From Betaproteobacteria bacterium (GTDB lineage Bacteria; Pseudomonadota; Gammaproteobacteria; Burkholderiales; Burkholderiaceae_C): a stretch of DNA of 64,000 bases. Made by a program: the position numbers and the translations under genes. The stretch is taken from the NCBI GenBank assembly GCA_947453725.1, contig CANGHH010000001.1, positions 62,001 to 126,000 on the forward strand, written 5' to 3'. The first letter of the stretch is position 1; each line of letters opens with the position of its first letter. The notes beneath the pieces were generated by a model. That model did no database searches, was not told where the DNA came from, and was given only the letters and a program-made list of their open reading frames with translations. Shown here piece after piece: positions 19,348 to 46,525 of this stretch.

Positions 19348-20985
19348 ATGGAACGTCGTTCATTTCTGAATCTCGGCAGCCTGGCCCTGGGCCCGATGCT
19401 GGTGCCCGTCTGCGGGCGCGCGGTGGCGGCCGAAGAACTGCTCAGCCCGATGGCCGTGAAGTTCAAGAAGATGCTGGCCGACACCGCGATGGGCGCCGCC
19501 ACCAGCGCCGGCGCCAGTTATTGCGATGTGCGCGTCGGGCGCTACCTGAACCAGTTCATCACCACGCGCGACCTCAACGTCGAGAACGTCGTCAACACCG
19601 AATCGGCCGGCGTCGGCGTTCGCGTGCTGGCTGGCGGCGCCTACGGCTTCGCGGCGACCAACGACATGACCGCCGACGGCGTGGCCGGCGCTGCCCGCCA
19701 GGCGGTGGCGATCGCCAAGGCGAATGCCAAGTTGCAGGGCGAGGCGGTGCGCCTGGCCCCGGTGAAGGGCGTCGGCGAAGTCAGCTGGGCGACGCCGCTG
19801 AAGAAGGACTGGCGCAAGGTGCCGATCAAGGACAAGGCCGACCTGCTGATCGCCGCCAACAAGGCCGGTTTCGACGCCGGTGCCAACTTCATGCGCTCGG
19901 TGCTGTTCCAGGTCAACCAGCAGAAGTATTTCGCCTCGACCGACGGGTCCTACATCGACCAGGACATCCACCGCATCTGGATGCCGATCACGGCCACCGC
20001 GGTGGACAAGGCCACCAACAAGTTCCGCTCGCGCGACGGCCTGTCGACCCCGGTGGGCATGGGCTATGAATACTTCGACGGCCGGCCGGAGGACAAGATC
20101 AAGGCTGCTGGCGGCGTTGCCACGCTGTACAAGGCTTCCTACGACCCGATCGAGGACGCCCGCGCCGCCGGCCGCCACGCCAGGGAAAAGCTGACCGCCA
20201 AGTCGGTCGAGCCCGGCAAGTACGACCTGGTGCTGAGCCCCGAACACCTGTGGCTGACGATCCACGAGTCGGTCGGTCACCCGACCGAGCTCGACCGCGT
20301 GCTCGGCTACGAGGCGAATTACGCGGGTACCAGCTTCGCCACGCTGGACAAGTGGCAGAGCAAGAAATTCAAGTACGGCGCCGAGCGCGTCAACATCGTC
20401 GCCGACAAGACCATTCCCGGTTCGCTGGGAGCGGTCGGCTTCGACGACGAGGGCGTCAAGTGCAAGACCTGGGACATCGTCAAGGACGGCGTGCTGGTGA
20501 ACTACCAGGCCACACGCGACCAGGTTCACATGCTGGGCGAGGCTGAATCGCAAGGCTGTTCCTACGCCGACAGCTGGGCCAGCGTGCAGTTCCAGCGCAT
20601 GCCCAATGTGTCGCTGTCGGCCGGCAAGGCCGCACTGACGCCCGACGAGATGATCAAGGACGTCAAGAAGGGCATCTACATCATCGGCGCCGGCTCGTTC
20701 TCGATCGACCAGCAGCGCTACAACTTCCAGTTCGGCGGCCAGCTGTTCTTCGAGATCAAGGACGGCAAGCTCGGCGCGCAGCTGGAAGACGTGGCCTACC
20801 AGTCCAACACCACCGAGTTCTGGAACGCCTGCAGCGCCCTGTGCGACGCCAGCGACTGGCGCATGGGCGGCTCCTTCTTCGACGGCAAGGGCCAGCCCTC
20901 GCAGTCCAGCGCGGTCTCGCACGGCTCGCCCACGGCGCGCTTCAACGGGGTCAACGTGATCAACACCGCCCGCAAGATCGCCTGA
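19348..20985 (+). CDS. Tat-exported TldD-type metalloprotease homologue (copy 1)
   Basis: A 545-residue TldD/PmbA family protein of the catalytic TldD type. The N terminus ERRSFLNL, a hydrophobic stretch and AVAA at about 25-28 form a twin-arginine signal, unlike cytoplasmic E. coli TldD. The zinc-binding HExxxH box is intact as HESVGH at residues 306-311. E. coli TldD works only with its non-catalytic partner PmbA/TldE, degrading unfolded peptides and processing microcin B17 and CcdA. Three PmbA-type genes follow; the first is 14 bases downstream. A GGAG site supports the ATG. Copy 2 at 23749 has the same length and motif positions. Substrate unknown; the periplasmic location is inferred from the signal. 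Confidence 0.85.
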   Translation: MERRSFLNLGSLALGPMLVPVCGRAVAAEELLSPMAVKFKKMLADTAMGAATSAGASYCDVRVGRYLNQFITTRDLNVENVVNTESAGVGVRVLAGGAYGFAATNDMTADGVAGAARQAVAIAKANAKLQGEAVRLAPVKGVGEVSWATPLKKDWRKVPIKDKADLLIAANKAGFDAGANFMRSVLFQVNQQKYFASTDGSYIDQDIHRIWMPITATAVDKATNKFRSRDGLSTPVGMGYEYFDGRPEDKIKAAGGVATLYKASYDPIEDARAAGRHAREKLTAKSVEPGKYDLVLSPEHLWLTIHESVGHPTELDRVLGYEANYAGTSFATLDKWQSKKFKYGAERVNIVADKTIPGSLGAVGFDDEGVKCKTWDIVKDGVLVNYQATRDQVHMLGEAESQGCSYADSWASVQFQRMPNVSLSAGKAALTPDEMIKDVKKGIYIIGAGSFSIDQQRYNFQFGGQLFFEIKDGKLGAQLEDVAYQSNTTEFWNACSALCDASDWRMGGSFFDGKGQPSQSSAVSHGSPTARFNGVNVINTARKIA

Positions 20986-20999
20986 GCCCGGGGCCGCGC

Positions 21000-22337
21000 A
21001 TGAAGCTGCTCAGCCCCGACGAAACCAGGCGCCTGTGCGACAAGCTGATGGCGCTGAGCCAGGCCGACGAATGCACGGTCAACCTCAACGGCAGCCGCAC
21101 CGGCAACATCCGCTACGCACGCAACAGCGTGTCGACCGCCGGGCTGGTCGAGGACACCCAGCTGGTCGTCGCCGTGGCCTTCGGGCGCCAGCAGGGCGTG
21201 GCCACCACCAACGAACTGGACGACGCCTCGCTGGCCCGCGTCGTGCGTCAGGCCGAAGCGCTGGCCCGGCTGGCCCCCGACAACCCCGAGTTCATGCCCG
21301 CGGTCGGCAAGCAGGCCTACAAGGCCACCCCCACCTTCAGCCCGGCCACCGCCGCGGTCGACGCCGATTTCCGCGCCCGCGCGGCGGCCTACAGCATCGA
21401 GGCCTGCCGCAAGCGTGGCCTGGTGGCGGCCGGTTTCTTCACCGACAGCACCGGCTACGCGACGGTGGCCAATTCCCGGGGCGTCTTCGGCCACCAGGCC
21501 AGCACCTCGCTGGACTTCACCTGCACCGTGCGCACCGAAGACGGCCGCGGCTCGGGGTGGGTCAAGCGCTCGGATTTCGACGCTGCCCGCTTCGATGCCC
21601 GCGAGGCCTCGGACGTGGCGATCGACAAGGCGCTGCGCTCGGTCGAGGCCAAGGCCATCGAGCCGGGCCGCTACACGGTGATCCTGGAACCGGCGGCCAC
21701 CTCCGACATCGTCGGCACCATGCTGGCCGGTTTCGACGCCCGCCAGGCCGACGAGGGCCGCAGCTTCCTCAGCCGACGAGGCGGCGGCAACCGACAGGGC
21801 GAAAAGCTCTTCGACGAGCAGGTGAACATCTGGGCCGACCCCTGGAACCCGGACGTCGGCGTGCTGCCCTGGGACGGCGACACGATGCTGGCGCGCGAGC
21901 GCACCGAGGTCATCAAGGACGGCCGCGTCAACACGCTGGACTACTCGCTGTACTGGGCCAAGAAGCAGGGCCTGCGCCCCACCGCCCGACACGGCAACAT
22001 GGTGATGGCCGGCACCAAGCAGACGACGGCCGAACTGATCGCCGGCACCAAGAAGGGCGTGCTCGTCACGCGCACCTGGTACATCCGCGAAGTCGACCCG
22101 CAGTCGCTGCTGCTGACCGGGCTGACCCGCGACGGCACCTTCTACATCGAGAACGGCAAGATCCTCTACCCGATCAAGAACTTCCGATTCAACGAAAGCC
22201 CGGTGACGATGCTCAACAACATCGAAGCCATCGGCCAACCGGCGGTCATTGCCGGCGACGAAGTGCCCTACCAGATGCTGATCCCGCCGATGAAGGTGCG
22301 CGATTTCAACTTCACCAGCCTGTCCGACGCCGTTTGA
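21000..22337 (+). CDS. PmbA/TldE-type protein (copy 1)
   Basis: A 445-residue TldD/PmbA family member that lacks the HExxxH box, so it is expected to be the non-catalytic partner of a TldD. The N-terminal ADECTVNLNGSRTGNIRYA and NSVSTAGLVEDTQ match the family N-terminal domain, and TEDGRGSGW and KNFRFNESPVTMLNNIE the C-terminal domain. There is no signal peptide, although the neighbouring TldD has a Tat signal. It is 14 bases after TldD copy 1 and 15 before PmbA copy 2. The ATG lacks a good ribosome-binding site (GGGGCCGC precedes it), so it may depend on coupling. Confidence 0.85.
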   Translation: MKLLSPDETRRLCDKLMALSQADECTVNLNGSRTGNIRYARNSVSTAGLVEDTQLVVAVAFGRQQGVATTNELDDASLARVVRQAEALARLAPDNPEFMPAVGKQAYKATPTFSPATAAVDADFRARAAAYSIEACRKRGLVAAGFFTDSTGYATVANSRGVFGHQASTSLDFTCTVRTEDGRGSGWVKRSDFDAARFDAREASDVAIDKALRSVEAKAIEPGRYTVILEPAATSDIVGTMLAGFDARQADEGRSFLSRRGGGNRQGEKLFDEQVNIWADPWNPDVGVLPWDGDTMLARERTEVIKDGRVNTLDYSLYWAKKQGLRPTARHGNMVMAGTKQTTAELIAGTKKGVLVTRTWYIREVDPQSLLLTGLTRDGTFYIENGKILYPIKNFRFNESPVTMLNNIEAIGQPAVIAGDEVPYQMLIPPMKVRDFNFTSLSDAV

Positions 22338-22352
22338 TCGAACCGCAAAGCC

Positions 22353-23690
22353 ATGAAATTCCTGAACTCTGAAGAAGCCCGTCGCATCTGCGACAAGGTG
22401 CTGGCCCTGTCCAGGGCCGACGAATGCACCATCAGCCTGAGCGGCAGCCGCGACGGCAACATCCGCTATGCGCGCAACAGCGTGTCGACCGCTGGCCTGG
22501 TCGAAAACACCCAGCTGGCGGTGTCGGTGGCCTTCGGCAAGAAGCAGGGCACGGCGGTCATCAACGAACTCGACGACGCCTCGCTGGAGAAGCTGGTCCG
22601 CCGCGCCGAAGACGTCGCGCGGCTGGCGCCCGACAACCCCGAATTCATGCCCACGGCGGGCAAGCAGGTCTTCAAGGCCTCACCCACCTTCAGCCCCAGC
22701 ACGGCGGCCATCGACCCCGAGTTCCGCGCCCAGGTGGCGGCCTACAGCATCGAGGCCTGCCGCAAGAAGGGCCTGACCGCCGCCGGTTTCTTCAGCGACA
22801 GCCTGGGCTACAGCGCCATCGCCAATTCGAACGGCGTCTTCGGCCACCAGGCCAGCACCTCGCTGGACCTCACCGTCACCGTGCGCACCGAAGATGGCCG
22901 CGGTTCGGGCTGGGTCAAGCGTTCGGCCAACGACGCCGCGCGCCTCGACGCCCGCGAGGCCTCGGACGTGGCCATCGAGAAGGCGCTGCGCTCGGTCGAA
23001 GCCAAGGCCATCGAGCCGGGCCGCTACACCGTGATCCTGGAACCGGCGGCGACCTCGGAACTGGTTGGCCGGATGCTCGGCGGCTTCAACGCACGCCAGG
23101 CCGACGAAGGCCGCAGCTTCCTCAGCAAGAAGGGCGGCGGCAACCGCCTGGGCGAAAAGCTGTTCGACGAGCAGGTCAACGTCTGGTCCGACCCCTGGGA
23201 CAAGGATGTGGGCGTGCTGCCCTGGGACGGGCGCAGCATGCTGGGCCGTGAGCGCACCGACGTCATCAAGGCCGGCCGGGTCAACGCGCTGGAGTATTCG
23301 CCGTACTGGGCGAAGAAGCAGGGTGCCCGGGCGGTTGGCGGCCCCGGCAACATGATCATGGGCGGCGGCGACAAGTCGCTGGCCGAGCTGATCGCCAACA
23401 CCAAGAAGGGCGTGCTGGTCACGCGCACCTGGTACATCCGCCTGGTCGACCCGCAATCGGTGCTGCTGACCGGCCTGACGCGCGACGGCACCTTCTACAT
23501 CGAGAACGGCAAGATCGCCTACCCGGTAAAGAACTTCCGCTTCAACGAAAGTCCGGTGACGATGCTCAACAACATCGAAGAGATCGGCAAGCCGGTGATC
23601 ATTGCCGGCGACGAGGTGCCCTACCAGATGCTGATTCCGCCGATGAAGGTGCGCGACTTCAACTTCACCAGCCTGTCCGACGCCGTCTAG
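22353..23690 (+). CDS. PmbA/TldE-type protein (copy 2)
   Basis: A 445-residue protein very similar to copy 1 along its whole length, including identical stretches such as PYQMLIPPMKVRDFNFTSL near the C terminus. It clearly arose by tandem duplication. No HExxxH box and no signal peptide are present. Having two PmbA-type genes behind one TldD suggests different partners or a mixed assembly. A 58-base gap separates it from TldD copy 2, the longest gap between genes in this run. Confidence 0.85.
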   Translation: MKFLNSEEARRICDKVLALSRADECTISLSGSRDGNIRYARNSVSTAGLVENTQLAVSVAFGKKQGTAVINELDDASLEKLVRRAEDVARLAPDNPEFMPTAGKQVFKASPTFSPSTAAIDPEFRAQVAAYSIEACRKKGLTAAGFFSDSLGYSAIANSNGVFGHQASTSLDLTVTVRTEDGRGSGWVKRSANDAARLDAREASDVAIEKALRSVEAKAIEPGRYTVILEPAATSELVGRMLGGFNARQADEGRSFLSKKGGGNRLGEKLFDEQVNVWSDPWDKDVGVLPWDGRSMLGRERTDVIKAGRVNALEYSPYWAKKQGARAVGGPGNMIMGGGDKSLAELIANTKKGVLVTRTWYIRLVDPQSVLLTGLTRDGTFYIENGKIAYPVKNFRFNESPVTMLNNIEEIGKPVIIAGDEVPYQMLIPPMKVRDFNFTSLSDAV

Positions 23691-23748
23691 CGCGTTCGCA
23701 ACGCCGTCAGCCGCGCGCCCCCGGCGGCACCTTTTCCGAGACGAGACC

Positions 23749-25386
23749 ATGGAACGACGTCGCCTCCTCAAGCTGTCCGGCATCGCCGGCGGCACGCTGC
23801 TGGTGCCGGTCTTCGGGCACGCCATCGCGGCCGAAGCGCTGGTGCAGCCGGCCGACCGCGCCGGGCGCAAGCGGCTGGCCGACACCGCGCTGAACGCCGC
23901 CACCGCAGCCGGCGCCAGCTACTGCGACGTGCGCATCGGCCGCTACCTGAACCAGTTCATCACGACGCGCGACACGCGGGTCGAGGACACCGTCAACACC
24001 GAATCGCTGGGCGTCGGCGTGCGCGTCATCGCGCTGGGCGCCTACGGCTTCGCGTCGACCAACGACCTGACGCCCGACGCCGTGGCCGCTGCCGCGCGGC
24101 AGGCGGTGGCCATCGCCAAGGCCAACGCGCGGCTGCAGACCGAGCCGCTGCGGCTGGCGCCCGTGAAGGGCGTCGGCGAGGTGCAGTGGGCCACGCCCAT
24201 GACGAAAGACTGGCGCACGGTGCCCTTGAAGGACAAGGCCGAGATGCTGATCGCGGCCAACCGCGCCGGGCTCGAGGCCGGCGCGGCCTTCATGCAGTCG
24301 CGGCTGTTCCAGGTCAACCAGCAGAAGTATTTCGCCTCGACCGATGGCTCCTACATCGACCAGGACATCCACCGCCTGTGGGCGCCGCTGACCGCCACCG
24401 CGGTGGACAAGGCCAGCAACCGCTTCCGCAGCCGCGACAGCCTGGCTTCGCCGGTCGGCATGGGCTACGAGTTCTTCGACGCCAGGCCGGCCGACAAGCT
24501 GCAGGCCGCCGGCGGCGTGACCACGCTCTACGGTGCGTCCTGCGACCTGGTCGAGGAAGCCCGCGCCTGCGGCCGCCAGGCCAGGGAAAAGCTGGGCGCC
24601 AAGTCGGTGGAGCCGGGCAAGTACGACCTGGTGCTGAGCCCCGACCACCTGTTCCTGACGATCCACGAATCGGTCGGCCACACCACCGAACTCGACCGCG
24701 TGCTGGGCTACGAGGCCAATTACGCGGGCACCAGTTTCGCGACGCTCGACAAGTGGCGCAGCAAGAACTTCGCCTTCGGTGCCGAGCGCGTCAACTTCTT
24801 CGCCGACAAGACCACGCCGGGCTCGCTGGGCGCGGCCGGCTTCGATGACGAAGGCGTGGCCTGCAAGCGCTGGGACCTGGTCAGGAACGGCGTGCTGGTC
24901 AACTACCAGGCCACGCGCGACCAGGCCCACCTGATCGACGAGCCGGCGTCGCACGGCTGCTCCTACGCCGACAGCTGGTCCAGCGTGCAATTCCAGCGCA
25001 TGCCGAATGTTTCGCTGGCCGCCGGCAAGGCCCTGCTGACGCCCGACGAGATGGTCAAGGACGTCAAGAAGGGCATCTACATCCTGGGCCGCGGCAGCTA
25101 CAGCATCGACCAGCAACGCTACAACTTCCAGTTCGGCGGCCAGCTGTTCTACGAGATCCGCAACGGCCAGATCACCGGTCCGCTGGAAGACGTCGCCTAC
25201 CAGGCCAACACCCAGGAATTCTGGAACGCCTGCAGCGCCATCTGCGACCAGCGCGACTGGCGCATGGGCGGTTCCTTCTTCGATGGCAAGGGCCAGCCCA
25301 GCCAGGTCAGCGCGGTGTCGCACGGCTCGGCCACCACGCGCTTCAACGGCATCAACGTCATCAACACCGCGCGCAAGATCGCTTGA
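23749..25386 (+). CDS. Tat-exported TldD-type metalloprotease homologue (copy 2)
   Basis: A 545-residue paralogue of copy 1, collinear without visible gaps. The Tat-type N terminus is ERRRLLKLSG followed by a hydrophobic stretch and AIAA; HESVGH is again at residues 306-311. The two copies are most alike in the catalytic half and the C terminus (RMGGSFFDGKGQPSQ in both) and differ most in the signal and in surface positions. It has its own GAGACC leader and the third PmbA-type gene 14 bases later, so genes 23749-26729 repeat the pair at 19348-22337. Confidence 0.85.
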   Translation: MERRRLLKLSGIAGGTLLVPVFGHAIAAEALVQPADRAGRKRLADTALNAATAAGASYCDVRIGRYLNQFITTRDTRVEDTVNTESLGVGVRVIALGAYGFASTNDLTPDAVAAAARQAVAIAKANARLQTEPLRLAPVKGVGEVQWATPMTKDWRTVPLKDKAEMLIAANRAGLEAGAAFMQSRLFQVNQQKYFASTDGSYIDQDIHRLWAPLTATAVDKASNRFRSRDSLASPVGMGYEFFDARPADKLQAAGGVTTLYGASCDLVEEARACGRQAREKLGAKSVEPGKYDLVLSPDHLFLTIHESVGHTTELDRVLGYEANYAGTSFATLDKWRSKNFAFGAERVNFFADKTTPGSLGAAGFDDEGVACKRWDLVRNGVLVNYQATRDQAHLIDEPASHGCSYADSWSSVQFQRMPNVSLAAGKALLTPDEMVKDVKKGIYILGRGSYSIDQQRYNFQFGGQLFYEIRNGQITGPLEDVAYQANTQEFWNACSAICDQRDWRMGGSFFDGKGQPSQVSAVSHGSATTRFNGINVINTARKIA

Positions 25387-25400
25387 ACCGGGGCCGCACC

Positions 25401-26729
25401 GTGAAACCCATCGACGAAGAAACCGCCCAGCGCATCTGCGCCAAGGCCATCGGCTTTTCCAAGGCCGACGAGTGTCGCGTGACGCTGCAAGGCAGTCGCA
25501 CCGGCAACATCCGCTACGCGCAGAACAGCGTGTCCACGGCGGGCCTGAACGAGGACACGCAGATCGCGGTCAGCGTGGCCTTCGGCAAGCGCCAGGGCAC
25601 GGCCACGCTGAACGAGTTCGACGACGCGTCGCTGGAAAAGCTGGTGCGCCGCGCCGAAGACGTGGCGCGGCTGGCGCCCGAGAACCCGGAATTCATGCCG
25701 GCCGTCGGCAAGCAGGCTTTCAAGGCTTCCGCCACCTACGCCAAGGCCACGGCCGCGATCGACCCCGAGTACCGCGCCGAAGTGGCCGCCGCCAGCATCA
25801 GCGTCAGCCGCAAGAAGGGCCTGCAGGCGGCCGGCTTCTTCGTCGACACCACCGGCTTCGAGGCGGTGGCTAATTCCAATGGCGTCTTCGGCTTTCAGAC
25901 CCACACCGATCTGAACTTCACCGTCACCACCCGCACCGAAGACGGCCGCGGTTCGGGCTGGGTCACGCGCAACGGCAATGACGCGGCGCGCTTCGACGCG
26001 CGCGAGGCCTCGGCGGTGGCCATCGAGAAGGCGCTGCGTTCGGTCGACGCCAAGGCCATCGAGCCCGGCCGCTACACCGTCATCCTGGAGCCGGCGGCTT
26101 CGGCCGACATCCTGAGCTTCATGTTCCGCGCCTTCGACGCGCGCCAGGCCGACGAGGGCCGCAGCTTCCTCAGCAAGAAGGGCGGCGGCAACCGGCTGGG
26201 CGAGAAGCTGTTCGACGAGCAGGTCAGCCTGCGGACCGACCCCTGGGACAAGGACGCACCGGTGCGGCCCTGGGACAGCGACACCATGCTGGCCCGCGAG
26301 CGCCGCGACCTGATCCAGGCCGGCAAGGTCGCTTCGCTGGACTATTCGGCTTTCTGGGCGCGCAAGCAGGGCGTTGCGGCTTGCGGCCGGCCGGGCAATG
26401 TGATCATGGCCGGCGGCAGCAAGTCGCTGGCCGAACTGATCGCCAGCACCAAGAAGGGCGTGCTGGTCACCCGCACCTGGTACATCCGTTCGGTCGATCC
26501 GCAGTCGCTGCTGGTCACCGGCCTGACGCGCGACGGCACCTTCTACATCGAGAACGGCAAGATCGCGTATCCGGTGAAGAACTTCCGCTTCAACGAAAGC
26601 CCGGTGACCATGCTGAACAACATCGACGAACTGGGGCAGACGCAGGTGCTGGGCGAGAACCGCCGCGTGGTGGTGCCGGCGATGAAGTTGCGCGACTTCA
26701 ACTTCACCAGCCTGTCGGACGCGGTTTAG
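25401..26729 (+). CDS. PmbA/TldE-type protein (copy 3)
   Basis: A 442-residue PmbA/TldE-type protein paired with TldD copy 2. GTG 25401 was chosen because it aligns with the starts of copies 1 and 2; a TTG at 25383 would add six residues. The stretch before it (GGGGCCGC) is nearly the same as that before copy 1, evidence that the pair was duplicated with its spacer. It has lost a few residues near the C terminus (the segment matching PYQMLIPPMK is shortened) but keeps LRDFNFTSLSDAV. No HExxxH box, no signal peptide. DUF4159 follows after 21 bases. Confidence 0.85.
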   Translation: MKPIDEETAQRICAKAIGFSKADECRVTLQGSRTGNIRYAQNSVSTAGLNEDTQIAVSVAFGKRQGTATLNEFDDASLEKLVRRAEDVARLAPENPEFMPAVGKQAFKASATYAKATAAIDPEYRAEVAAASISVSRKKGLQAAGFFVDTTGFEAVANSNGVFGFQTHTDLNFTVTTRTEDGRGSGWVTRNGNDAARFDAREASAVAIEKALRSVDAKAIEPGRYTVILEPAASADILSFMFRAFDARQADEGRSFLSKKGGGNRLGEKLFDEQVSLRTDPWDKDAPVRPWDSDTMLARERRDLIQAGKVASLDYSAFWARKQGVAACGRPGNVIMAGGSKSLAELIASTKKGVLVTRTWYIRSVDPQSLLVTGLTRDGTFYIENGKIAYPVKNFRFNESPVTMLNNIDELGQTQVLGENRRVVVPAMKLRDFNFTSLSDAV

Positions 26730-26750
26730 GCGGTCTGGGGCGAAAACGGC

Positions 26751-27380
26751 GTGGCGACGACTTCGGGCTTCGATTTCTACTTCACGCGCCTGGTCTACGA
26801 CTCGGGCGACTGGGACGTGGACATCCGCATGCCGAGCAATGTGCTGAACTCGCTGGTCGAGTACACGACGCTGCGCGTCGACCCGGTCGAACGCGTCGTG
26901 CCGCTGGCCGACCCGAAGATGCTGGAAGCGCCGTTCTGCTACCTGGCCGGCCACAAGCTGGTGCAGTTTTCGCCGGCCGAGCGCAGGAACTTCGAGCGCT
27001 ACGTGAAGGGCGGCGGTTTCGTCTTCGTCGACGACTGCAACCACGACATCGACGGCCTGTTTGCCAAGTCCTTCGAGGCCGAAGTGGCGCGCATCTTCGG
27101 CCCGAAAGCGCTGCACAAGATCCCGAACCAGCACCCGGTCTACTCCAGCTTCTTCAAGTTCGACGGCCCGCCGAACACCGGCGTCGAACTGAATGGCTGG
27201 GGCGACGACCTGGTGCACGATTACCTGAAGGCGGTCGAGATCAACGGCCGCGTCCGTCTGCTCTACAGCAACAAGGACTACGGCTGCGAGTGGGACTACG
27301 ACTTCCGCAACAAGCGCTGGCTGGTCATCGACAACACGCGCTTCGCCGTCAACATCATTCAATACGCGCTGGGCGCGTGA
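26751..27380 (+). CDS. DUF4159 protein
   Basis: A 209-residue protein matching DUF4159: an N-terminal FTRLVYDSGDWDVD, a middle LEAPFCYLAGHKLVQFSPAE and GGGFVFVDDCNHDI, and a C-terminal WLVIDNTRFAVNIIQYALG. The fold resembles class I glutamine-amidotransferase-like domains, but I see no catalytic Cys in the expected place; function unknown. Elsewhere this domain is often fused to BatA-type membrane regions; here it is free and without membrane helices or signal. The start is GTG. It links the TldD/PmbA genes to the MoxR genes. Confidence 0.8.
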   Translation: MATTSGFDFYFTRLVYDSGDWDVDIRMPSNVLNSLVEYTTLRVDPVERVVPLADPKMLEAPFCYLAGHKLVQFSPAERRNFERYVKGGGFVFVDDCNHDIDGLFAKSFEAEVARIFGPKALHKIPNQHPVYSSFFKFDGPPNTGVELNGWGDDLVHDYLKAVEINGRVRLLYSNKDYGCEWDYDFRNKRWLVIDNTRFAVNIIQYALGA

Positions 27381-27408
27381 TCCTCGAGCATGAACCTGGA
27401 GCAGGACC

Positions 27409-28413
<1,005 letters not shown>

Positions 28414-28427
28414 CGGATTACTCGGCG

Positions 28428-29321
28428 ATGTTGGCCACGTCCGCCATCCGGGCGCAAACCGCAGACCTGGACCTCGTCATCCGCCACGTGCTGGCGGGGC
28501 TGGGCCATGGCCTGCACGCCGGCCGTGAACGCGGTGCCGGCGTCGAGTTCAGCGAGTACCGCGCCTACGCGCCGGGTGACGAATGGCGCCGCGTCGACTG
28601 GAAGCTGCTGGCCCGCGCCGACCGCTACTACGTGCGCGAGGCCGAGCGCGACAGCCATGTCGCGGTCTGGCTGCTGCTCGACGCCAGCGCCTCGATGGCC
28701 GAGCCCAGCCGCCGCCTGGCCGGCCTCGACAAGCTGGGTTTCGCGCGCACCGTGCTGGCCTGCATCGCGGCCATCGCGCAGCGCCAGGGCGACGCCTTCG
28801 GGCTCGTCGTGGCGGGCGGCGACCGCATGCTCTTCACGCCGGCGTCGCGCGGGCCGCGCCAGATGCACCGCGTGCTGGCGCAACTGCAGCGCGCGCAGGC
28901 CGGCGGCGGTCTGCCCGACGCCAGCGCCGTGCGCAGCAGCCTGCACTTCGCGCGCGCGCCCAGCCTGGTCTTTGCGGTCAGCGACGGCCTCGAATGGCCG
29001 TCGCCGCTGTCCGACGCCCTGCTGCGCCTGCGCGCCCTGCAGCACGACGTGCGCCTGCTGGTCCTGCAGACCGAGGCCGAAGCCGAAGGCCGCTTCGCCA
29101 CCGGCACTGGCTACCGCGACCCCGAAGCGGTGGACGCCCCCGTCGGCCTGCGCCGCTATGACGCCGCCGCGCGTGGTGCCTATCTCGCCGCGCGCCAGGC
29201 GCATTTCGACAGCCTCGCCACGGCCTGCCGGCAGCGCGATGTACCGCTGCTGATGGCCTCGATCGAAGACGCCGTCGGGCCGGTGCTGCGCAGCTGGCTG
29301 CAGCGGGCAGGGCGCCGGTGA
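28428..29321 (+). CDS. DUF58 protein (MoxR partner)
   Basis: A 297-residue DUF58 protein. The family motif lies at about residues 33-65: GRERGAGVEFSEYRAYAPGD, then RRVDWKLLAR. It is followed by WLLLDASASM (81-90), the start of a von Willebrand A-like fold with a DxSxS metal site. DUF58 genes almost always accompany moxR. There are no membrane helices. Its stop overlaps the next gene's GTG by four bases. Confidence 0.9.
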   Translation: MLATSAIRAQTADLDLVIRHVLAGLGHGLHAGRERGAGVEFSEYRAYAPGDEWRRVDWKLLARADRYYVREAERDSHVAVWLLLDASASMAEPSRRLAGLDKLGFARTVLACIAAIAQRQGDAFGLVVAGGDRMLFTPASRGPRQMHRVLAQLQRAQAGGGLPDASAVRSSLHFARAPSLVFAVSDGLEWPSPLSDALLRLRALQHDVRLLVLQTEAEAEGRFATGTGYRDPEAVDAPVGLRRYDAAARGAYLAARQAHFDSLATACRQRDVPLLMASIEDAVGPVLRSWLQRAGRR

Positions 29322-30400
29322 GCAGCGCGCTCGCTGGGTGGTGGCTGGCGCTGCCGCTGCTGCTCTTGCCGCTCTGGTGGCACCGCCAGAAGCGCCAGCG
29401 CACCCAGGCGCTGCCGCTGGCCACCGCCCGCTTCCTGCCGGCCGCAGCGCCACAGCAGCTGCGCGTCTGGCGCTGGGTCGACAAGACCCTGCTGCTGCTG
29501 CGCCTGCTGTTGCTGCTGGGCCTGATCGCCTGGCTGGCCGACGTCGCGCTGGCCTGGCGCGGCGACACCGTCTTCGTCGGCGACCGGGTCGACCCGGTCT
29601 GGGCCGAAGCGCAGATCCAGGCCGCCGGGCTGGTCGCCGCGCGGCGCAGCCCGCTGCCCGGCGCCGACCCGCTGGCCTGGCTGGCCGCGCACGAGCGCGA
29701 GTGGCAGCCCGGGGCACGGCTGGCCATCGTCGCCACCGGCGACGCGGTGCCCATGGCGGCGCAGGCCCCGCAGTGGGTGCACCGCGTCGATGTGCGGCTG
29801 CAGGCCGCGTCGACCGGCACCGCGCCAGCCGTCCAGCCCGTCGAGCGCCACATCGTGCTGGCCAGCGCGCGCGAAGCCGATTGGCGGGCCCTGTTCACGG
29901 CCTTCGAGAGCGCGGGCCTGGGCCGCGAGCGCTATGCCATCCAGGCCGCGCCGGACGCCCGGACCGACCTGATCGTCTGGGACCGCCCCGGCGCGCCCGA
30001 CCCCGCCTGGCGCGCGCCGCTGTGGTGGGCGGTGCAGCCCGCGGCCTTCGCCGAGCTGGCTGCTGCGGCCCGGAGCGGCAGCCTGCGCGCGGCCGACACG
30101 CCGCGCGGCCGGGTCTGGGCGCGCGACCGCTGGCCGCTGGACGAGCGCGAGCCGCTCGACAGCGCGCGCGCGCTCTTCGACGACTGGCAGGGCCTGCAGC
30201 GCGAGCCGCTGCCCTACGCCGCGCCGACGTTGGTGCTGGACGCCCGTGCGACGCAACCGGCGCTGCAGCCCATCGGCGCCAGCCACGCGCTGCTGGCGCC
30301 GCTGCTGGCGCTGCTCTTCGCGTTGGAGCGCTTGCTGGCCTGGCGCCAGCGCCAGCCACACCCGGTGCCAGCGACGACCACCGCAGGCAGCGTGCCGTGA
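29318..30400 (+). CDS. BatA-like membrane protein
   Basis: A 360-residue protein with the N-terminal layout of BatA/aerotolerance proteins: a first helix (about 4-21), a basic WHRQKRQRTQ stretch ending in the ARFLP motif, and a second helix (about 55-76) rich in Leu. The soluble part is probably periplasmic. No intact metal-ion site of a von Willebrand A domain is visible, so the middle has diverged or been replaced. A third hydrophobic segment with basic residues ends the protein. GTGA overlaps join it to both neighbours. Confidence 0.7.
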   Translation: MSSALAGWWLALPLLLLPLWWHRQKRQRTQALPLATARFLPAAAPQQLRVWRWVDKTLLLLRLLLLLGLIAWLADVALAWRGDTVFVGDRVDPVWAEAQIQAAGLVAARRSPLPGADPLAWLAAHEREWQPGARLAIVATGDAVPMAAQAPQWVHRVDVRLQAASTGTAPAVQPVERHIVLASAREADWRALFTAFESAGLGRERYAIQAAPDARTDLIVWDRPGAPDPAWRAPLWWAVQPAAFAELAAAARSGSLRAADTPRGRVWARDRWPLDEREPLDSARALFDDWQGLQREPLPYAAPTLVLDARATQPALQPIGASHALLAPLLALLFALERLLAWRQRQPHPVPATTTAGSVP

Positions 30401-32397
30401 GCGAAGCCGCCGCCCGGTCTTCTGCCACCACGCTGCCGACCCTGCTCCAGCGCCTGTGGCGGGTCGCGCTCTGGCGCCGCCTGCCGGGCTGGCTGGCGGC
30501 GGGCCTGCCCTGGCTGCTGCTGCAGTCCTGGCCCGGCCTGGCGCTGTGGGCGCTGGCGCTGGGCCTCGACGCCTGGCGTCTGCGCGGGCGCATCGACGCC
30601 CAGGGGCTGCGCTGGCTCGACGCCGCGGTGCCGGCGCTGGAAGACAGCAGCGCGCTGCTGGTGCGGGCCGCGTCGCCGCTGGCGCGGCTGCAGCAGCAGC
30701 GCCTGCTGGCGCGCCTGGACCGCGTGGTCGATGCGCCGCTGCTGCGGCAGATCGCGCGCACGCGGGCCGGCTTCGACTGGCGCCTGCTGGTCCTCAGCCT
30801 GGCCGCTGCGGGGGGGGTGGCGCTGCTCGCCGCCCGGCCGGCCCAGCGCGGCGGCACCACCGCAGTCGCCGCGTCGGCGTCGGCCGTGGCTGGCGAACTG
30901 CGGCTGCAGATCGCGCCCCCTGCCTACACCGGCGTCGCCGCCTTCGACAGCGCGCCGCGCGACCTGCCGTTGCCCGAACAGAGCCGCGTGCGCTGGTGCC
31001 TGCCAGGGCCCGCCGACAACGAAGCCATCGAGCTCAGCGACGGCAGCCGGCTGCCGCTGGTCGCCGGCTGCGCCAGCTGGCTGGCCAGCGAGTCGACGAT
31101 CTGGCGCTGGCGCGGCCTGCGCCACACGCTGCGGGTGCAGCCCGACGCGGCGCCGCTGATCACCGTGCGCGCGCCCGACGAGCTGATCCGCACGCTGGGC
31201 CAGACCGAGACCAGCACGCGCATTGCCGTCACGGTGCGCGACGACTACCAGGTGGTGCGCGCCAGCCTGCACCTGACGCTGGCCCGAGGCAGTGGCGAGA
31301 ACGTGCGCTTCAGCGACCGCGAACTGCCGCTGCCGCAGGGCCGCGACCCGCGCGTCCGCGACTGGGACCAGACCTGGACGCTCAAGGAGCTGGGCATGGA
31401 ACCCGGCGACGAGCTCTACGTCTTCGTGCGCGCCAGCGACAACGCCGAACCGCGGCCCCACACCAGCACCTCGGCCACCGTCACCCTGCGCCTGCCGGGC
31501 CCGCTGGCGGCCAGCGAGGAAGCCTCGGCGCTGCCGATGCTGGTCAAGCCCGAGAACCTGCGCAGCCAGCGCCAGATCATCATCGACACCGAACAGCTGC
31601 TGGCCAACATCAAGGCCAACCCCAAACCGAAGCCGGCCGAGGTCCGCGCGCGCAGCGAGTCCATCGCCAGCGACCAGGCGCAGCTGCGCCGCCGCTATGG
31701 CCAGTTCCTGGGCGAAGAGTCCAGCCTCTTCGGCGACGCCGACGACCACGAGGCCGAGCCAGGCGCCGGCAAGCCCGACCTGATGGCTCAGTTCGGCCAC
31801 ACCCACGACCAGGCCGAGAACGCCACCTTGTTCGACGAGGCCACCAAGCAGGTGCTCCGCCGTGCGCTGTCGGCGATGTGGGACGCCGAGAAGGCGCTGC
31901 GCGCCATCACCCCGCAGCCGGCGCTGCCCTTCGAGTTCCGCGCGCTCGAAGCCATCAAGCAGCTGCAGCAGGCCGACCGCATCTACCTGCACCGCACGGC
32001 CTTCGCGCCGCCGCCGCTGAAGGAAGAAAAGCGCTTGAGCGGCGACGTGCTGGGCGCGCTCAGCAGCCGCCGCGCGCAGGGCGCGGCGGCCGAGGCGGTG
32101 CCCGCAGCGCTGCGCGAGCTGCTGCAGGCGCTGGCCGAGGATGCGCCGCTGCCCGCGCTGTGGCCGGCCACCGCACGGGCCTGGATCCGCGAGCACCTCG
32201 CTGCCGACGACGACCGCCTGGCGGCCCAGCGCGCCGTGCAGGATGTGCAGGACGGCTGCGGGCCCTGCCGCGCCACGCTGCGCGCGGCCCTGCGCGGCGG
32301 CATCACCGACACCCTGCCGCGCCTGCAGGCCACCGACAGCGGCAGCACGGCCTTCTCCAGCGCGCTCGAAAAGGCCCTGCGGCGGGGGCCGCCGTGA
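30397..32397 (+). CDS. Large membrane-anchored protein, DUF4175-like
   Basis: A 666-residue protein. One or two hydrophobic segments (about 31-58) and another (about 127-146) precede a long soluble region. This has a beta-rich part beginning ELRLQIAPPAYTGVA and a charged helical part with repeats of Gln, Glu and Arg (about 380-560), likely coiled coil. The layout resembles DUF4175 proteins found beside BatA-type genes in other bacteria, but the match is by general appearance. It probably forms the membrane scaffold of the MoxR-linked complex. It starts with GTG in an overlap and its stop shares one base with the next ATG. Confidence 0.6.
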   Translation: MSEAAARSSATTLPTLLQRLWRVALWRRLPGWLAAGLPWLLLQSWPGLALWALALGLDAWRLRGRIDAQGLRWLDAAVPALEDSSALLVRAASPLARLQQQRLLARLDRVVDAPLLRQIARTRAGFDWRLLVLSLAAAGGVALLAARPAQRGGTTAVAASASAVAGELRLQIAPPAYTGVAAFDSAPRDLPLPEQSRVRWCLPGPADNEAIELSDGSRLPLVAGCASWLASESTIWRWRGLRHTLRVQPDAAPLITVRAPDELIRTLGQTETSTRIAVTVRDDYQVVRASLHLTLARGSGENVRFSDRELPLPQGRDPRVRDWDQTWTLKELGMEPGDELYVFVRASDNAEPRPHTSTSATVTLRLPGPLAASEEASALPMLVKPENLRSQRQIIIDTEQLLANIKANPKPKPAEVRARSESIASDQAQLRRRYGQFLGEESSLFGDADDHEAEPGAGKPDLMAQFGHTHDQAENATLFDEATKQVLRRALSAMWDAEKALRAITPQPALPFEFRALEAIKQLQQADRIYLHRTAFAPPPLKEEKRLSGDVLGALSSRRAQGAAAEAVPAALRELLQALAEDAPLPALWPATARAWIREHLAADDDRLAAQRAVQDVQDGCGPCRATLRAALRGGITDTLPRLQATDSGSTAFSSALEKALRRGPP

Positions 32398-34037
32398 TGC
32401 CGCTGTCCTTGGGCGCCGTCAACGTCGTGAGCGCCGACGCCGTGGCGCTGGCAGCCGCGGCCTTGGTCGCCGCCGCCGGGGTTCTCGGCAGCGCGCTGTA
32501 CGCCCGCGCCCGGCGCTGGATCGATGCCGCGCTGGTGGCGGTGGCCGCCGCTGCGCTGGCGGTGCTGGTCAGCGACCTCTCCTTCGGCGCCAGCCCGGCC
32601 GGCACCGTCGCCGTCGCCGAGGGTCTGACGCCCGACCAGGTGCGTGGCGCCGCCACGCTGCGCCTGCAGGGCGAAGGCCTGCGCGCCGCCGCCTGGCACG
32701 ACCTGCCGACGCGGCCGCTGCAAGCCGCGGTTGCCGGGGACGGCGCGGACGCTGCGGGCGCTGTGGTGGCGCTGGAATTTCCGCGCCAGCTGGCGCTGGG
32801 CCGGCCTTTCGAGCTGACGCTGCGGCGCAGCCAGCCCTTGTCCGGCTGGCGCTTGCAGCTGCTGGACGAGAGCGGCCGGCTGCTGGCCCAGGCTGCGCCG
32901 GCCGGGGCCGCCACCGAGGCCCGCCTGCGCTGGCTGCCGCCGGTGGCCGAAACGCTGCTGCTGCAGGCCCGCGTGCTCGGCGCCGACGGCCGCGTGCTCG
33001 AGCAGGGGCCGCTGCCGCTGCGCGTGCAGGCCGGCCTGCCGCTGCAGGTCCAGGGGCGCTTCGGCGCGCCGTCCTTCGACGTCCAGGCGCTGAACAGCCT
33101 GCTGGTCGGCAGCGACGCGCTGGTCGACTGGCAGCTGACGCTGGGCAAGACCGTCACGCGCAGCGAGGCCGCGCGCGCGGCGCTGTCGGCACCCGACCTG
33201 CTGGTCATCGACGCCGCGTATTTCGAAAGTGCCAGCGGCCCGACCCGCGCCGCGCTGCTGGCCCAGGTCGCCGGTGGTCTGCCCTTGCTGGTGCTGGCCG
33301 CCAATGCCCGCGACCCCGCCTTGTGGGCGCGCGAACTGCAATTGCCGCTGGCGGCGACCGAGGGCGAGCCGACCCGCGCGCCCGGGCCCGACGCCAGCCT
33401 GCAGCTGCCGCTGACGCGCTGGGTGCCGGCCGCAGGGGCCCGGCCGGGCCCTTGGATGGCCAACGACGCCAGCCAGCCCTGGCTGTGGCAGCGCCGCTGG
33501 CAGGCCGGCCGCATCGTCTGGCTGGGCCTCAGCGACTGGCACCGCGCCGCGATCAGCGCGCCGCAGGCGCTGGGCGCCTGGTGGCAGCGGGTGCTGGACT
33601 CATCGGGTGTCCAGCATGCGCCGGCGCTGGTCTGGGACTTCCCCGACACGATGCCCGTGGCCGGCGAACGCAGCCTCGTCTGTGCCCGCGGTGCGCGTGC
33701 CGAGATGGCCGTCGAACTGCCCGGCCTGGACCAGCGCCTGCAGCTGCAGCGCCGTGCCGACCGCGCCGACGCCGCCTGCGCCGCCTTCTGGCCGCGCCAG
33801 GCCGGCTGGCAGCGGGTGCAGGGCCCGGATGCCGCCACGCCGGTGGCCGCGGTCTATGTCTATGCCGCCGACGCCTGGCCGGCCTGGCAGCGCCGGCTGC
33901 GCCGCGAGGCCGCTGCCCGCTATGCCGTGCGTGCCCAGCCGGCCCTGCCGCGCCTGCTCACGCCGCTGCCGGCCTGGCCCTGGGCGCTGGCCTTCGCTGC
34001 GGCCCTGCTGGCCTTGTGGTGGCGCGAACGGCGCTGA
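32397..34037 (+). CDS. Membrane protein at the end of the MoxR run
   Basis: A 546-residue protein with two N-terminal helices (about 13-35 and 42-60), a large, probably periplasmic region, and a C-terminal helix (about 521-540) followed by RERR. The middle contains a segment LLVIDAAYFESASGPTRAAL that recalls glutamine-amidotransferase-like domains found in BatA-linked proteins, and later beta-rich sequence. I do not recognise a named family. It is the last gene of the plus-strand run and ends 16 bases from the convergent ABC1 kinase gene; I see no hairpin there. Confidence 0.6.
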   Translation: MPLSLGAVNVVSADAVALAAAALVAAAGVLGSALYARARRWIDAALVAVAAAALAVLVSDLSFGASPAGTVAVAEGLTPDQVRGAATLRLQGEGLRAAAWHDLPTRPLQAAVAGDGADAAGAVVALEFPRQLALGRPFELTLRRSQPLSGWRLQLLDESGRLLAQAAPAGAATEARLRWLPPVAETLLLQARVLGADGRVLEQGPLPLRVQAGLPLQVQGRFGAPSFDVQALNSLLVGSDALVDWQLTLGKTVTRSEAARAALSAPDLLVIDAAYFESASGPTRAALLAQVAGGLPLLVLAANARDPALWARELQLPLAATEGEPTRAPGPDASLQLPLTRWVPAAGARPGPWMANDASQPWLWQRRWQAGRIVWLGLSDWHRAAISAPQALGAWWQRVLDSSGVQHAPALVWDFPDTMPVAGERSLVCARGARAEMAVELPGLDQRLQLQRRADRADAACAAFWPRQAGWQRVQGPDAATPVAAVYVYAADAWPAWQRRLRREAAARYAVRAQPALPRLLTPLPAWPWALAFAAALLALWWRERR

Positions 34038-34053: not shown

Positions 34054-35400
34054 TCAGAGTTCCGCGCCGAAAACCTCGTTCAGGTCCAGCCGGGCGCCCA
34101 GCCGCGTGCAGAGCATGAAGCTGCCGATGAACTTGCGCTGCAGGAACAGCAGGTCGGGCGGTGGCGTGCGGGCGTAGCCCTCGCCGAAGAACTGCGCCCG
34201 GCCCTGCGCGAAGGTGCGGGCGAAGAGGTCGGTGGCGCCGAAGTCGTAGGGCCCACGCTGCTGCAGCGGTTCACCGGCCGTCAGCATCATCGCGATGACG
34301 CCGCGCGTCTGCGTCGGCGGGTCTTCGGCGGCGATGAAGCCGGCGGCCTGCGCCGCGGCGGTCAAGCGTTCGAGGTCGGCGTCGCGCAGTGCGCGGCCCA
34401 GTTCCCGCAGCTGTTCGACGCGGCTGTCGCTGACCGCTTCGGTGGCGCCGAAGTCGACCAGCGCCACACGACCAGTACCGGCGTCGTACAGGTAGTTGCC
34501 GAAGTTGGGGTCGGTCTGCACCAGACGCATGCGGAAGAACTCATGGATCGACAGCCGGCTCAGGGCCGCGGCGACGTGGTCGCGCTGGACCTGCGGCACG
34601 CCGGGTCGCGTCAGCTGGTCGACCGCCACGCCGGGCGCGAAAGCCGTGGCGATGATGTGCGCGGTGCAGTGTTCCTCGAACACCGCCGGCACCGTCAGCA
34701 CCGGGTCGTCGCCGAGGCGGCGGCGGTACTCGGAGGCGTGGCGGGCTTCGGCGCGGTAGTCGGTCTCGAGGTGCAGCTGTTCGCGCACGCGGGCCAGCAT
34801 CGCGGTCGGGTCCAGCGCGGCGGGCACCAGGCCGGGGGTGCGCGCCAGCAGCGCCAGGTTGGCGACGTCGCTGTCGATGCTGGCCCGCACGCCGGGGTAC
34901 TGGATCTTCAGCGCCAGCAGCTGGCCGTCGTGGGTCTCGGCGCGGTGCACCTGGCCGATCGACGCGGCGGCGATGGGTGCGAAGCTGAAGCGGCGGAAGC
35001 GGCGGTGCCAGTCGGCGCCGTACTCGCGTTCCAGCACCTCGGCCAGCTGGGTCGCCGGCATGTGGTGGGCCCGGTCGCGCAGGCCGCCCAGCAGTTCGGC
35101 GAAGTGCGGCGGCAGCACGCCGTGGCCGTCCATCGACATCAGCTGGCCGACCTTCATCACCGCGCCCCGCATCTGCGACAGCCGGCCGGCCAGGCGCTGC
35201 GCGTTGGCCGGCGTCAGCATCAGATCGGCCAGCGCCGGGCGTTCGCCGCGGGCCAGCCGCGTCAGCCCTTCGGCGGCCGCACCGGCCGCCATCTCGCCGA
35301 CCGCGCGGCCCAGGTGCAGGAAGCGACTCGCGCGGCCTTGCGGCACCGGCGCGTTGCGGGTCGCATCGCCGGTGGGCCCTGGCTGTTCACCGCGACCCAC
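34054..35400 (-). CDS. ABC1/COQ8-type atypical kinase
   Basis: A 448-residue protein of the ABC1 (UbiB/COQ8/ADCK) family of atypical kinases and ATPases, which support ubiquinone synthesis and lipid handling. Diagnostic elements: KxGQ as KVGQ (83-86), the Ala-rich loop AAASIGQVH (144-152), Lys165 in ALKIQYPG, the ETDYRAEA motif (212-219), QTDPNFGN (295-302) and DFG (316-318). QTDPN plus LVDFGA resembles mitochondrial COQ8/ADCK3 more than UbiB, which has ADPHPGN. No C-terminal membrane helices like those of UbiB are seen, so it is not the main UbiB. The start is a GTG. Confidence 0.88.
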   Translation of the reverse strand: MGRGEQPGPTGDATRNAPVPQGRASRFLHLGRAVGEMAAGAAAEGLTRLARGERPALADLMLTPANAQRLAGRLSQMRGAVMKVGQLMSMDGHGVLPPHFAELLGGLRDRAHHMPATQLAEVLEREYGADWHRRFRRFSFAPIAAASIGQVHRAETHDGQLLALKIQYPGVRASIDSDVANLALLARTPGLVPAALDPTAMLARVREQLHLETDYRAEARHASEYRRRLGDDPVLTVPAVFEEHCTAHIIATAFAPGVAVDQLTRPGVPQVQRDHVAAALSRLSIHEFFRMRLVQTDPNFGNYLYDAGTGRVALVDFGATEAVSDSRVEQLRELGRALRDADLERLTAAAQAAGFIAAEDPPTQTRGVIAMMLTAGEPLQQRGPYDFGATDLFARTFAQGRAQFFGEGYARTPPPDLLFLQRKFIGSFMLCTRLGARLDLNEVFGAEL

Positions 35401-41829: not shown

Positions 41830-41844
41830 GCCGGAGCCCTGTTG

Positions 41845-43482
41845 ATGACTGCACCTGTGAACCGACGCGGCTTCATGGCCGCCTCCTTGCCCCTGGGCGC
41901 TGCGGCGACCGCTGTCGTGACCGGCGCGATGAGTGACGGCGCGCAAGCCGCCGGCCCGGCCCGCGCGGCGGTCGCACCGTCGATGCTCGAAGGCCTGGAC
42001 GCGGCCGCGCTGCAGGCCCGGATGGCTGCCGGCCGCCTCAGCGCGCTGGGCCTGACGCGGGCCTGTCTGCGCCGCATCGCGGCCATCGACCACGCCGGCC
42101 CGCAGCTGCGCTCGGTGGTCGAGGTCAACCCCGACGCGCTGGCCCAGGCCCGCGTGCTGGACGCCGAACGCAAGGCCGGCCGCGTGCGCGGGCCCCTGCA
42201 CGGCATGCCGGTGCTGATCAAGGACAACATCGCCACCGCCGACCGCATGGCCACCACCGCCGGTTCGCTGGCGCTGGCCGGCCTGCACGCGCAGCGCGAC
42301 GCGCACATCGTCACGCGCTTGCGCGAGGCCGGCGCGGTCATCCTGGGCAAGACCAACCTCAGCGAGTGGGCCAATTTCCGCAGCACGCGCAGCAGCAGCG
42401 GCTGGAGCAGCCGCGGCGGCCAGACCCGCAACGCCTATGCGCTGACGCGCACGCCCAGCGGCAGCAGTTCGGGCTCCGGCGTCGCGGTGGCCGCCGGGCT
42501 GTGCGTCTTCGCGGTCGGCACCGAGACCGATGGCTCCATCGTGTCGCCGGCCAGCCGCAGTGGCGTGGTCGGTTTCAAGCCGACGCTGGGCCGCGTCAGC
42601 CGCGACGGCATCATCCCGATCGCCGCCTCGCAGGACACCGCCGGCCCGATGGCGCGCAGCGTGGCCGATGCGGCGCTGCTGATGTCGGTGCTGGCCGGGC
42701 CCGATGCGCGCGACGCCGCGACCGCGGCGCTGCCGGCCGGCGCCGCCGCGGCCGACTACCTGGGCGCGCTGAAGGCCGGCGCCCTGCAAGGTGCGCGCAT
42801 CGGCGTCGTGCGCAGCCCGCTGCCCAACCAGCCGCAGGCGCTGGCCCTGTTCGAAGCCGCGCTGGCGGTGCTGAAGGCGCAGGGCGCGGTGCTGGTCGAG
42901 AACCTGCAGATCCCCAACCGCGACAAGTACGGCGCCACTGAATCGACCGTGCTGCTGCATGAGTTCAAGGACGGCGTGGCCAAGTACCTGGCGGCTTTCC
43001 AGCCCGACGCACCGGTCAAGAACCTGCAGGACCTGATCGCCTGGAACAGCGCCCACGCGGCGCAGGCCATGCCGTTCTTCGACCAGGAGCTGTTCCTGTC
43101 GGCGCAGGCCACCAGCGGCCTGGACAGCAAGGACTACGTCGATGCGCTGGCCACCAACCACCGCTACTCGCGCGCCGAAGGCCTGGACGCGCTGTTCGCC
43201 GAAAACCAGCTCGACGCCGTGGTCACCGCCACCGGCAACCCGGCCTGGCGCATCGACCACATCCTGGGCGACTTCAGCAGCCGCGCCGGCTTCACCGCGC
43301 CTTTTGCCGTGTCGGGTTACCCGCACATCACCGTGCCGATGGGCCTGGTCGCTGAACTGCCGGTGGGTCTGTCTTTCGGCGCGCTGGCCTGGCAGGACGC
43401 CAAGCTGCTGGGCATCGCCCACGCCTACGAACAAGCCAGCCGGATGCGCCGCCCGCCGAAGTTCCTGGCCGACGCGGGCTGA
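41845..43482 (+). CDS. Tat-exported amidase (amidase signature family)
   Basis: A 545-residue amidase of the GatA-like signature family. The N terminus NRRGFMAASLPLG with an AQA-type site is a Tat signal, so it acts outside the cytoplasm and is not GatA. Catalytic residues are present: Lys126 in LIKDNIAT, the cis-Ser in GSSSGSG (206-212) and nucleophile Ser231 in ETDGSIVSPA. The start was set at ATG 41845, with GGAG 9 bases upstream; the codon before it is an alternative TTG. Such enzymes hydrolyse amides or peptide amides. Coupled to the M28 peptidase, it may belong to an extracytoplasmic peptide-use pathway. Confidence 0.88.
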   Translation: MTAPVNRRGFMAASLPLGAAATAVVTGAMSDGAQAAGPARAAVAPSMLEGLDAAALQARMAAGRLSALGLTRACLRRIAAIDHAGPQLRSVVEVNPDALAQARVLDAERKAGRVRGPLHGMPVLIKDNIATADRMATTAGSLALAGLHAQRDAHIVTRLREAGAVILGKTNLSEWANFRSTRSSSGWSSRGGQTRNAYALTRTPSGSSSGSGVAVAAGLCVFAVGTETDGSIVSPASRSGVVGFKPTLGRVSRDGIIPIAASQDTAGPMARSVADAALLMSVLAGPDARDAATAALPAGAAAADYLGALKAGALQGARIGVVRSPLPNQPQALALFEAALAVLKAQGAVLVENLQIPNRDKYGATESTVLLHEFKDGVAKYLAAFQPDAPVKNLQDLIAWNSAHAAQAMPFFDQELFLSAQATSGLDSKDYVDALATNHRYSRAEGLDALFAENQLDAVVTATGNPAWRIDHILGDFSSRAGFTAPFAVSGYPHITVPMGLVAELPVGLSFGALAWQDAKLLGIAHAYEQASRMRRPPKFLADAG

Positions 43483-43570
43483 GCCCGGGCTGCGGCAGCA
43501 CCCCGCTAAACTGAAATCGGCTCGAGGGCCGAAGAACCGATCACGAACCCACAAGGACAGGAGACAAGAC

Positions 43571-45396: not shown

Positions 45397-45412
45397 GCCC
45401 ACCGGCTGGGCC

Positions 45413-45441
45413 GGGCCGGGACACCCTGAGACCCCGGGCCC
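45413..45441 (+). other. GC-rich hairpin after the cytochrome gene
   Basis: GGGCCGGG (45413-45420) can pair with CCCCGGGCCC (45432-45441) with one bulged G. It lies 16 bases after the cytochrome stop and 48 before the ABC transporter gene. No T run follows, so it may be a pause or mRNA-end stabiliser more than a terminator. Confidence 0.35.
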
Positions 45442-45488
45442 ATCCGGTTTGCAAGACACTCGGCGGTTCACACGACTCCGGAGACTCC

Positions 45489-46502: not shown

Positions 46503-46525
46503 CACCGCCAGCCCTCGGCAGTGGC

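Follow-up and report, generated by a model that had tools for sequence, protein, structure and literature searches.

A TldD-bearing operon and its described relatives

The operon reported here, a run of TldD, PmbA, DUF4159, and MoxR-type genes, lies in a 64,000-nucleotide stretch (the window; G000:C1:62001-126000) of a Betaproteobacteria bacterium genome (4.40 Mb, 31 contigs) and resembles several described systems. Its peptidase genes recall the TldD/TldE pair of Escherichia coli, which, to our knowledge, has no export signal. Bat (Bacteroides aerotolerance) and other MoxR-DUF58-VWA operons share MoxR, DUF58, and the N-terminal double membrane anchor of BatA with it, and we know of no TldD, PmbA, or DUF4159 gene in them. 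The locus in the window comprises 11 genes, all on the plus strand, in the order TldD1, PmbA1, PmbA2, TldD2, PmbA3, DUF4159, MoxR, DUF58, BatA-like, OrfX, and OrfY, with gaps of 14, 15, 58, 14, 21, 28, and 14 bases followed by overlaps of 4, 4, and 1 bases. A first-pass annotation, made from the sequence, had placed these genes on one strand with the same range of gaps and the same overlaps, while counting ten genes where its own list totals 11. The best explanation of the locus is a TldD-bearing variant of the known MoxR-DUF58-BatA/DUF4159 operons.

Two further operons in the literature are similar. In Rhizobium leguminosarum, an operon MoxR reportedly matters for the integrity of the membrane and for morphology (excerpts of PMC3893208), and RL3499 and RL3500 appear in the growth-impaired table of a transposon screen (excerpts of PMC5118466). 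In Stenotrophomonas maltophilia, an RNA sequencing (RNA-seq) paper calls the nine locus tags NIPOLPBK_01784-01792 a 'not-yet-characterized' operon, naming eight proteins: two TldD, a putative protease, a MoxR-like ATPase, a membrane protein, and three hypotheticals. 'Some genes' of this operon were down-regulated in the biofilms of all isolates (PMC7688217, in excerpt, as for the other statements from this paper). The mention is made in passing, and the excerpts assign no DUF4159 or DUF58, describe no signals, and offer no model; it is from gene content that we infer it to be the same operon. Nine core genes are also present in the class-mates L034, L035, and L043. The open-licence literature, within which our search fell and which leaves out most subscription papers, yielded no characterized system joining the TldD/PmbA, DUF4159, and MoxR parts, as the first-pass annotation had supposed; its description of the system as a candidate undescribed one did not wholly hold, given the S. 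maltophilia operon and a known TldD-less sister operon in Alphaproteobacteria.

Conservation of the operon as a unit

A survey of 398 genomes of the phylum recovered DUF4159 in 106, that of the window included, and in two kinds: in 13 genomes a stand-alone protein in open frames of 216-299 amino acids (aa), and in the other 93 a long protein in open frames of at least 578 aa. For 11 stand-alone and nine long-type loci, we retrieved 20 kb of surrounding sequence. Another 80 stand-alone loci, the top 80 among 582 confirmed, were taken from a scan of named genomes. This gave 91 stand-alone loci, 89 of them distinct, as two of the 11 duplicate loci of the named set. The 80 came from Oxalobacteraceae and allies, Sphingobium, Sphingomonas, Erythrobacter, Brevundimonas, Asticcacaulis, Alteromonas, Paraglaciecola, Colwellia, and Xanthomonadales.

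By tblastn, TldD, PmbA, MoxR, DUF58, and OrfX adjoined DUF4159 in 11 of 11 fetched stand-alone loci, and neither TldD nor PmbA was found within 20 kb of DUF4159 in any of the nine long-type loci. The core order TldD-PmbA-DUF4159-MoxR-DUF58-BatA-OrfX-OrfY, on one strand, was kept in all 91 stand-alone loci examined. MoxR was present in 91, PmbA in 90, DUF58 in 88, TldD in 87, BatA in 86, OrfX in 84, and OrfY in 83, and every missing core gene falls at a contig end. Upstream of DUF4159, the patterns were TldD-PmbA-TldD-PmbA (36 loci), TldD-PmbA (36), TldD-TldD-PmbA (9), TldD-PmbA-TldD (5), and others (5, of which 4 were truncated). The window holds one PmbA beyond the 2+2 set common among its relatives.

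A search of the 398 genomes with TldD1 gave full-length matches of at least 63% identity in exactly the 13 genomes with a stand-alone DUF4159, the next-best matches outside them having 43% and 31% identity. Such a coincidence would have a chance of about 1e-24 if genomes were independent, which they are not. The distribution is patchy, with the operon in two of 250 genomes of the window's order, its own included. The first-pass annotation had joined the two halves into one system expected to recur in other genomes, and both the fixed order and the co-occurrence in 13 of 13 genomes bear this out, the neighbors being conserved. It is very improbable that the TldD/PmbA and MoxR halves are independent and simply lie side by side: TldD-less MoxR-DUF58-BatA/DUF4159 operons do exist (nine of nine long-type loci fetched, of 93) and guanine-plus-cytosine content differs between the halves, but such independence is at odds with the order in 91 of 91 loci, the exact 13-genome match, the tight gene spacing, and the treatment of a like gene set as one operon in PMC7688217. 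The eight core genes almost certainly act as a single unit.

Among the core proteins, DUF4159 was the most conserved: where it matched the window protein, the median identity was 86.5% in Burkholderiales and 74.6% elsewhere. Outside Burkholderiales it was followed by TldD (about 65-67%), MoxR (61%), and PmbA (58-60%), then more weakly by DUF58 (39%), OrfX (34%), and OrfY (27%, from 12 loci with a match); the window BatA-like protein had no match there at the threshold of this comparison.

The long-type operon appears to have four genes, namely MoxR, DUF58, the long DUF4159 protein, and a protein of ~715 aa weakly like OrfY, and from this content it is probably RL3499-RL3502 of R. leguminosarum. 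It thus shares MoxR, DUF58, DUF4159, and a last protein weakly resembling OrfY with our operon. In this alphaproteobacterial type, DUF4159 lies inside a long protein (frames of about 900-1200 aa) whose N-terminus was taken as BatA-like; the BatA profile of our operon matched one of nine long-type proteins at an expectation value (E) below 1e-3. In contrast, the window encodes BatA and DUF4159 in separate frames, as do 86 of 91 loci; contig ends cut the remaining five. The four long-type DUF4159 sequences compared also lack the DDCNHD, NGWGDD, and GCEWDYD motifs. One genome of family f85 carries both kinds of DUF4159 frame, of 272 aa and 934 aa (G634:C30:11580-12170 and G634:C58:16276-16827).

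Export signal and active site of TldD

TldD1 (19348..20985) and TldD2 (23749..25386), which share 77% identity, each begin with a Tat-type (twin-arginine translocation) signal, MERRSFLNLG...AVAAEE and MERRRLLKLSG...AIAAEA, respectively, and carry the metallopeptidase motif HESVGH. PmbA1 (21000..22337), PmbA2 (22353..23690; 79% identity to PmbA1), and PmbA3 (25401..26729) are non-catalytic TldE-type partners with no signal peptide seen; PmbA2 matches 1vpb_A (4e-22) and E. coli PmbA (5nj5_B, 2e-13). All five proteins match three PmbA_TldD domains in Pfam, the third at 6e-29 for TldD1, 3e-28 for TldD2, and 1e-40 to 2e-40 for the three PmbA, so that the first-pass assignment of two TldD with intact HExxxH and three partners was upheld.

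The twin-arginine motif RRxF was present in every one of the 138 TldD with an N-terminus extending to the start of the profile, and was accompanied by a hydrophobic uncharged run in 134. The same combined test was passed by none of 127 PmbA, 89 MoxR, or 88 DUF58 proteins; RRxF by itself occurred in four of the 127 PmbA, which gauges the chance level. A signal-peptidase-like AxA site followed the motif in 110 of 141 TldD. In TldD1, residues 28-540 align with E. coli TldD (5nj5_A, 2.6e-14), the alignment opening directly after the signal. The genome encodes TatC and, apart from the operon, has ordinary genes for TldD and TldE, and no signal was seen on this ordinary TldD with its start as chosen. 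From these signals, the operon TldD is in all likelihood a Tat substrate, and the exported peptidase proposed in the first-pass annotation appears very probable on sequence grounds.

The HExxxH motif was found in 141 of 141 TldD and in none of the 127 PmbA; the three PmbA of the window lack it. As to the metal site, the third ligand of E. coli TldD is Cys454, and Asp can stand in for Cys in some relatives (excerpts of PMC5810440). With the genome's own ordinary TldD as canonical reference, the Cys454 column held no Cys in 143 of 143 rows of operon TldD (141 Phe, two gaps), and the adjoining Asp was conserved (D512 of TldD1). Asp probably takes the place of the Cys ligand, and doing without a thiol ligand would fit an oxidizing compartment. 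Given that this substitution is known in some members, the missing Cys marks a subgroup and does not exclude these proteins from the TldD/PmbA family. The operon pair is thus like E. coli TldD/TldE in near-full-length sequence match, in HExxxH confined to TldD, and in a non-catalytic partner, and unlike it in the Tat-type signal, the absence of Cys at the Cys454 position, and its encoding with MoxR, DUF58, and DUF4159 in a genome that retains ordinary TldD and TldE besides.

In Brevundimonas, an extra Tat-type TldD lies on the opposite strand just after OrfY (L042:927-2483, L099, and L104, of which L042 and L104 are from the same genome), with no PmbA found beside it within the stretch examined.

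Signals of PmbA and DUF4159

DUF4159 (26751..27380; Pfam 2e-48) is a stand-alone protein related by sequence to the solved structure 4i66 (2.3e-11), and the window protein has no signal. A signal-like stretch was found in none of 46 Burkholderiales loci. Outside this order, a hydrophobic N-terminal extension was present in 45 of 45 loci, counted from putative starts; 27 passed the strict test, and the other 18 had uncharged runs of 12-13, one of them at a hydropathy of 1.28, just below threshold. In 44 of the 45, the extension carried R..F and then an aliphatic residue, or a similar motif.

PmbA, by the test of RRxF plus a hydrophobic run, had no export signal in any lineage seen. If periplasmic, both PmbA and the Burkholderiales DUF4159 would accordingly have to ride with TldD. 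It seems rather likely that PmbA crosses as a Tat passenger on TldD, and the Burkholderiales DUF4159 probably does likewise.

The membrane half

MoxR (27409..28413) is an AAA+ ATPase (AAA_3, 3.2e-64) with Walker motifs in its translation, and it adjoins DUF58 and a double-anchored BatA N-terminus, as in MoxR-DUF58-BatA operons. DUF58 (28428..29321; Pfam 8e-29) has no membrane segment by hydropathy and carries DASAS, resembling a metal ion-dependent adhesion site. The BatA-like protein (29318..30400) has two N-terminal membrane segments, a predicted periplasmic domain, and a C-terminal membrane segment. Its own match to BatA was weak (PF07584, 1e-3, under the Pfam cut-off), and across its alignment the family was matched at E up to 0.1 by 29 of 29 members, the window protein and 28 relatives (best 3.5e-13); a domain search of this alignment gave no VWA match.

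OrfX (30397..32397) appears distantly DUF4175-like, four of 33 members matching PF13779 at E up to 0.1 (best 4.6e-15) and the window protein not matching. Its model shows a membrane hairpin, a third membrane helix, immunoglobulin (Ig)-like sandwiches, and a helical C-terminus with CxxC (predicted local distance difference test [pLDDT] 82.7, predicted template modeling score [pTM] 0.50). The model of OrfY (32397..34037; pLDDT 87.9, pTM 0.75) runs from two membrane helices through an Ig-like and a GATase-like domain to a C-terminal membrane helix. BatA-like, OrfX, and OrfY each combine N-terminal membrane segments with a large domain, predicted from charge distribution to be periplasmic. Additionally, OrfX has an invariant HxH (468/470) and a near-invariant CxxC (621/624), and OrfY has two invariant Cys (429 and 461), possibly a metal site and disulfides.

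A candidate mechanism and its alternatives

Tat substrates cross the membrane folded. In the mechanism that we propose, the folded TldD metalloenzyme would be exported by Tat, with PmbA, and probably the Burkholderiales DUF4159, passing through bound to it. In the periplasm, TldD/PmbA would form, as E. coli TldD/E does, a hollow peptidase, with Asp probably as metal ligand instead of Cys, and, as topology and co-conservation suggest, would dock together with DUF4159 on the large domains of BatA-like, OrfX, and OrfY. Cytosolic MoxR and DUF58 may spend ATP to assemble, gate, or drive this membrane complex, and unfolded or tethered envelope peptides would be removed as the outcome. We give about even weight to the general form of this proposal, in which Tat exports the TldD/PmbA peptidase and a membrane complex driven by MoxR/DUF58 holds it and serves to control it. 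Its weakest step, and a somewhat doubtful one, is ATP coupling across the membrane. The fully specified version, a chambered periplasmic TldD/PmbA peptidase powered or gated by cytosolic MoxR across BatA/OrfX/OrfY, with PmbA and in one lineage DUF4159 as Tat hitchhikers, is tentative and, taken whole, rather unlikely.

Several observations weigh against the proposal. Two TldD accompany one PmbA in 14 of 91 loci, so a 1:1 pairing is not fixed, and a Sulfolobus TldD homodimer has been reported as active (cited in the excerpts of PMC5810440). The non-Burkholderiales DUF4159 extensions may use Sec, as RRxF occurs in only 14 of 45. The S. maltophilia paper lends weak support for co-regulation, since its Venn analysis lists 5S rRNA as the one commonly down-regulated gene (PMC7688217). 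Finally, MoxR/VWA pairs are described as metal-insertion or assembly factors (NorQ/NorD for nitric oxide reductase, and CoxD).

This last point favors the chief alternative, in which MoxR and DUF58 mature the peptidase in the cytosol, by metal loading or by TldD/PmbA/DUF4159 assembly, before Tat export, with BatA, OrfX, and OrfY as receptor or anchor. The export of Tat substrates in the folded state agrees with it as well. We consider it unlikely, as it leaves unexplained why three membrane proteins carry large domains predicted to be periplasmic, and why operons of the alphaproteobacterial type have the same MoxR-DUF58-BatA/DUF4159 set without TldD. Alternatively, TldD/PmbA could, once exported, mature one specific substrate or cleave an amide in it. 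This substrate might be a peptide that is secreted or an acetylated constituent of the cell wall or of lipids, and the rest would be export or sensing machinery. Maturation of microcin B17 by E. coli TldD/E (excerpts of PMC5810440) provides a precedent. Against it, no neighbor cluster outside the core spans most families, though a few small ones cross between families, in a scan of frames of at least 110 aa and the 25 largest clusters that could miss a short precursor; this alternative is improbable.

If the MoxR-linked peptidase proposed above is real, Xanthomonadales, Alteromonadales, sphingomonads, Caulobacterales, and Oxalobacteraceae would have, in an exported TldD branch tied to a MoxR membrane complex, a new route for quality control or maturation in the envelope. 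In the fully specified version, the ATP-free periplasm would also gain an ATP-dependent protease. Many uncharacterized MoxR-DUF58-BatA operons would gain a candidate client. The sharp question that it raises is whether signal-less PmbA is in the periplasm only together with TldD.

Genomic setting

Upstream of the run, ddl, ftsQ, ftsA, and ftsZ lie on the plus strand, with 98 bases from ftsZ to TldD1; downstream, an ABC1-type kinase gene (34054-35400) lies on the opposite strand. Between ftsZ and lpxC lie ~33.5 kb here (window 19249-52753), beginning with the operon, versus 0.3-0.5 kb between FtsZ and LpxC domain matches in eight of eight same-family genomes tested; in G056 it is 2.5 kb. The difference from the same-family genomes suggests that the operon reached its present site, at the end of the division cluster, by insertion or rearrangement.

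The ftsZ-lpxC stretch also carries genes for a TonB receptor, an M28 peptidase, an amidase, ABC transport, an amidohydrolase, a Rieske oxygenase, and EutB. Within it, at 41842-51962, an NMT1/THI5-like binding protein, an ABC ATPase, and a permease are encoded beside the amidase, with the amidohydrolase and EutB further on, possibly an amine or pyrimidine uptake and breakdown set.

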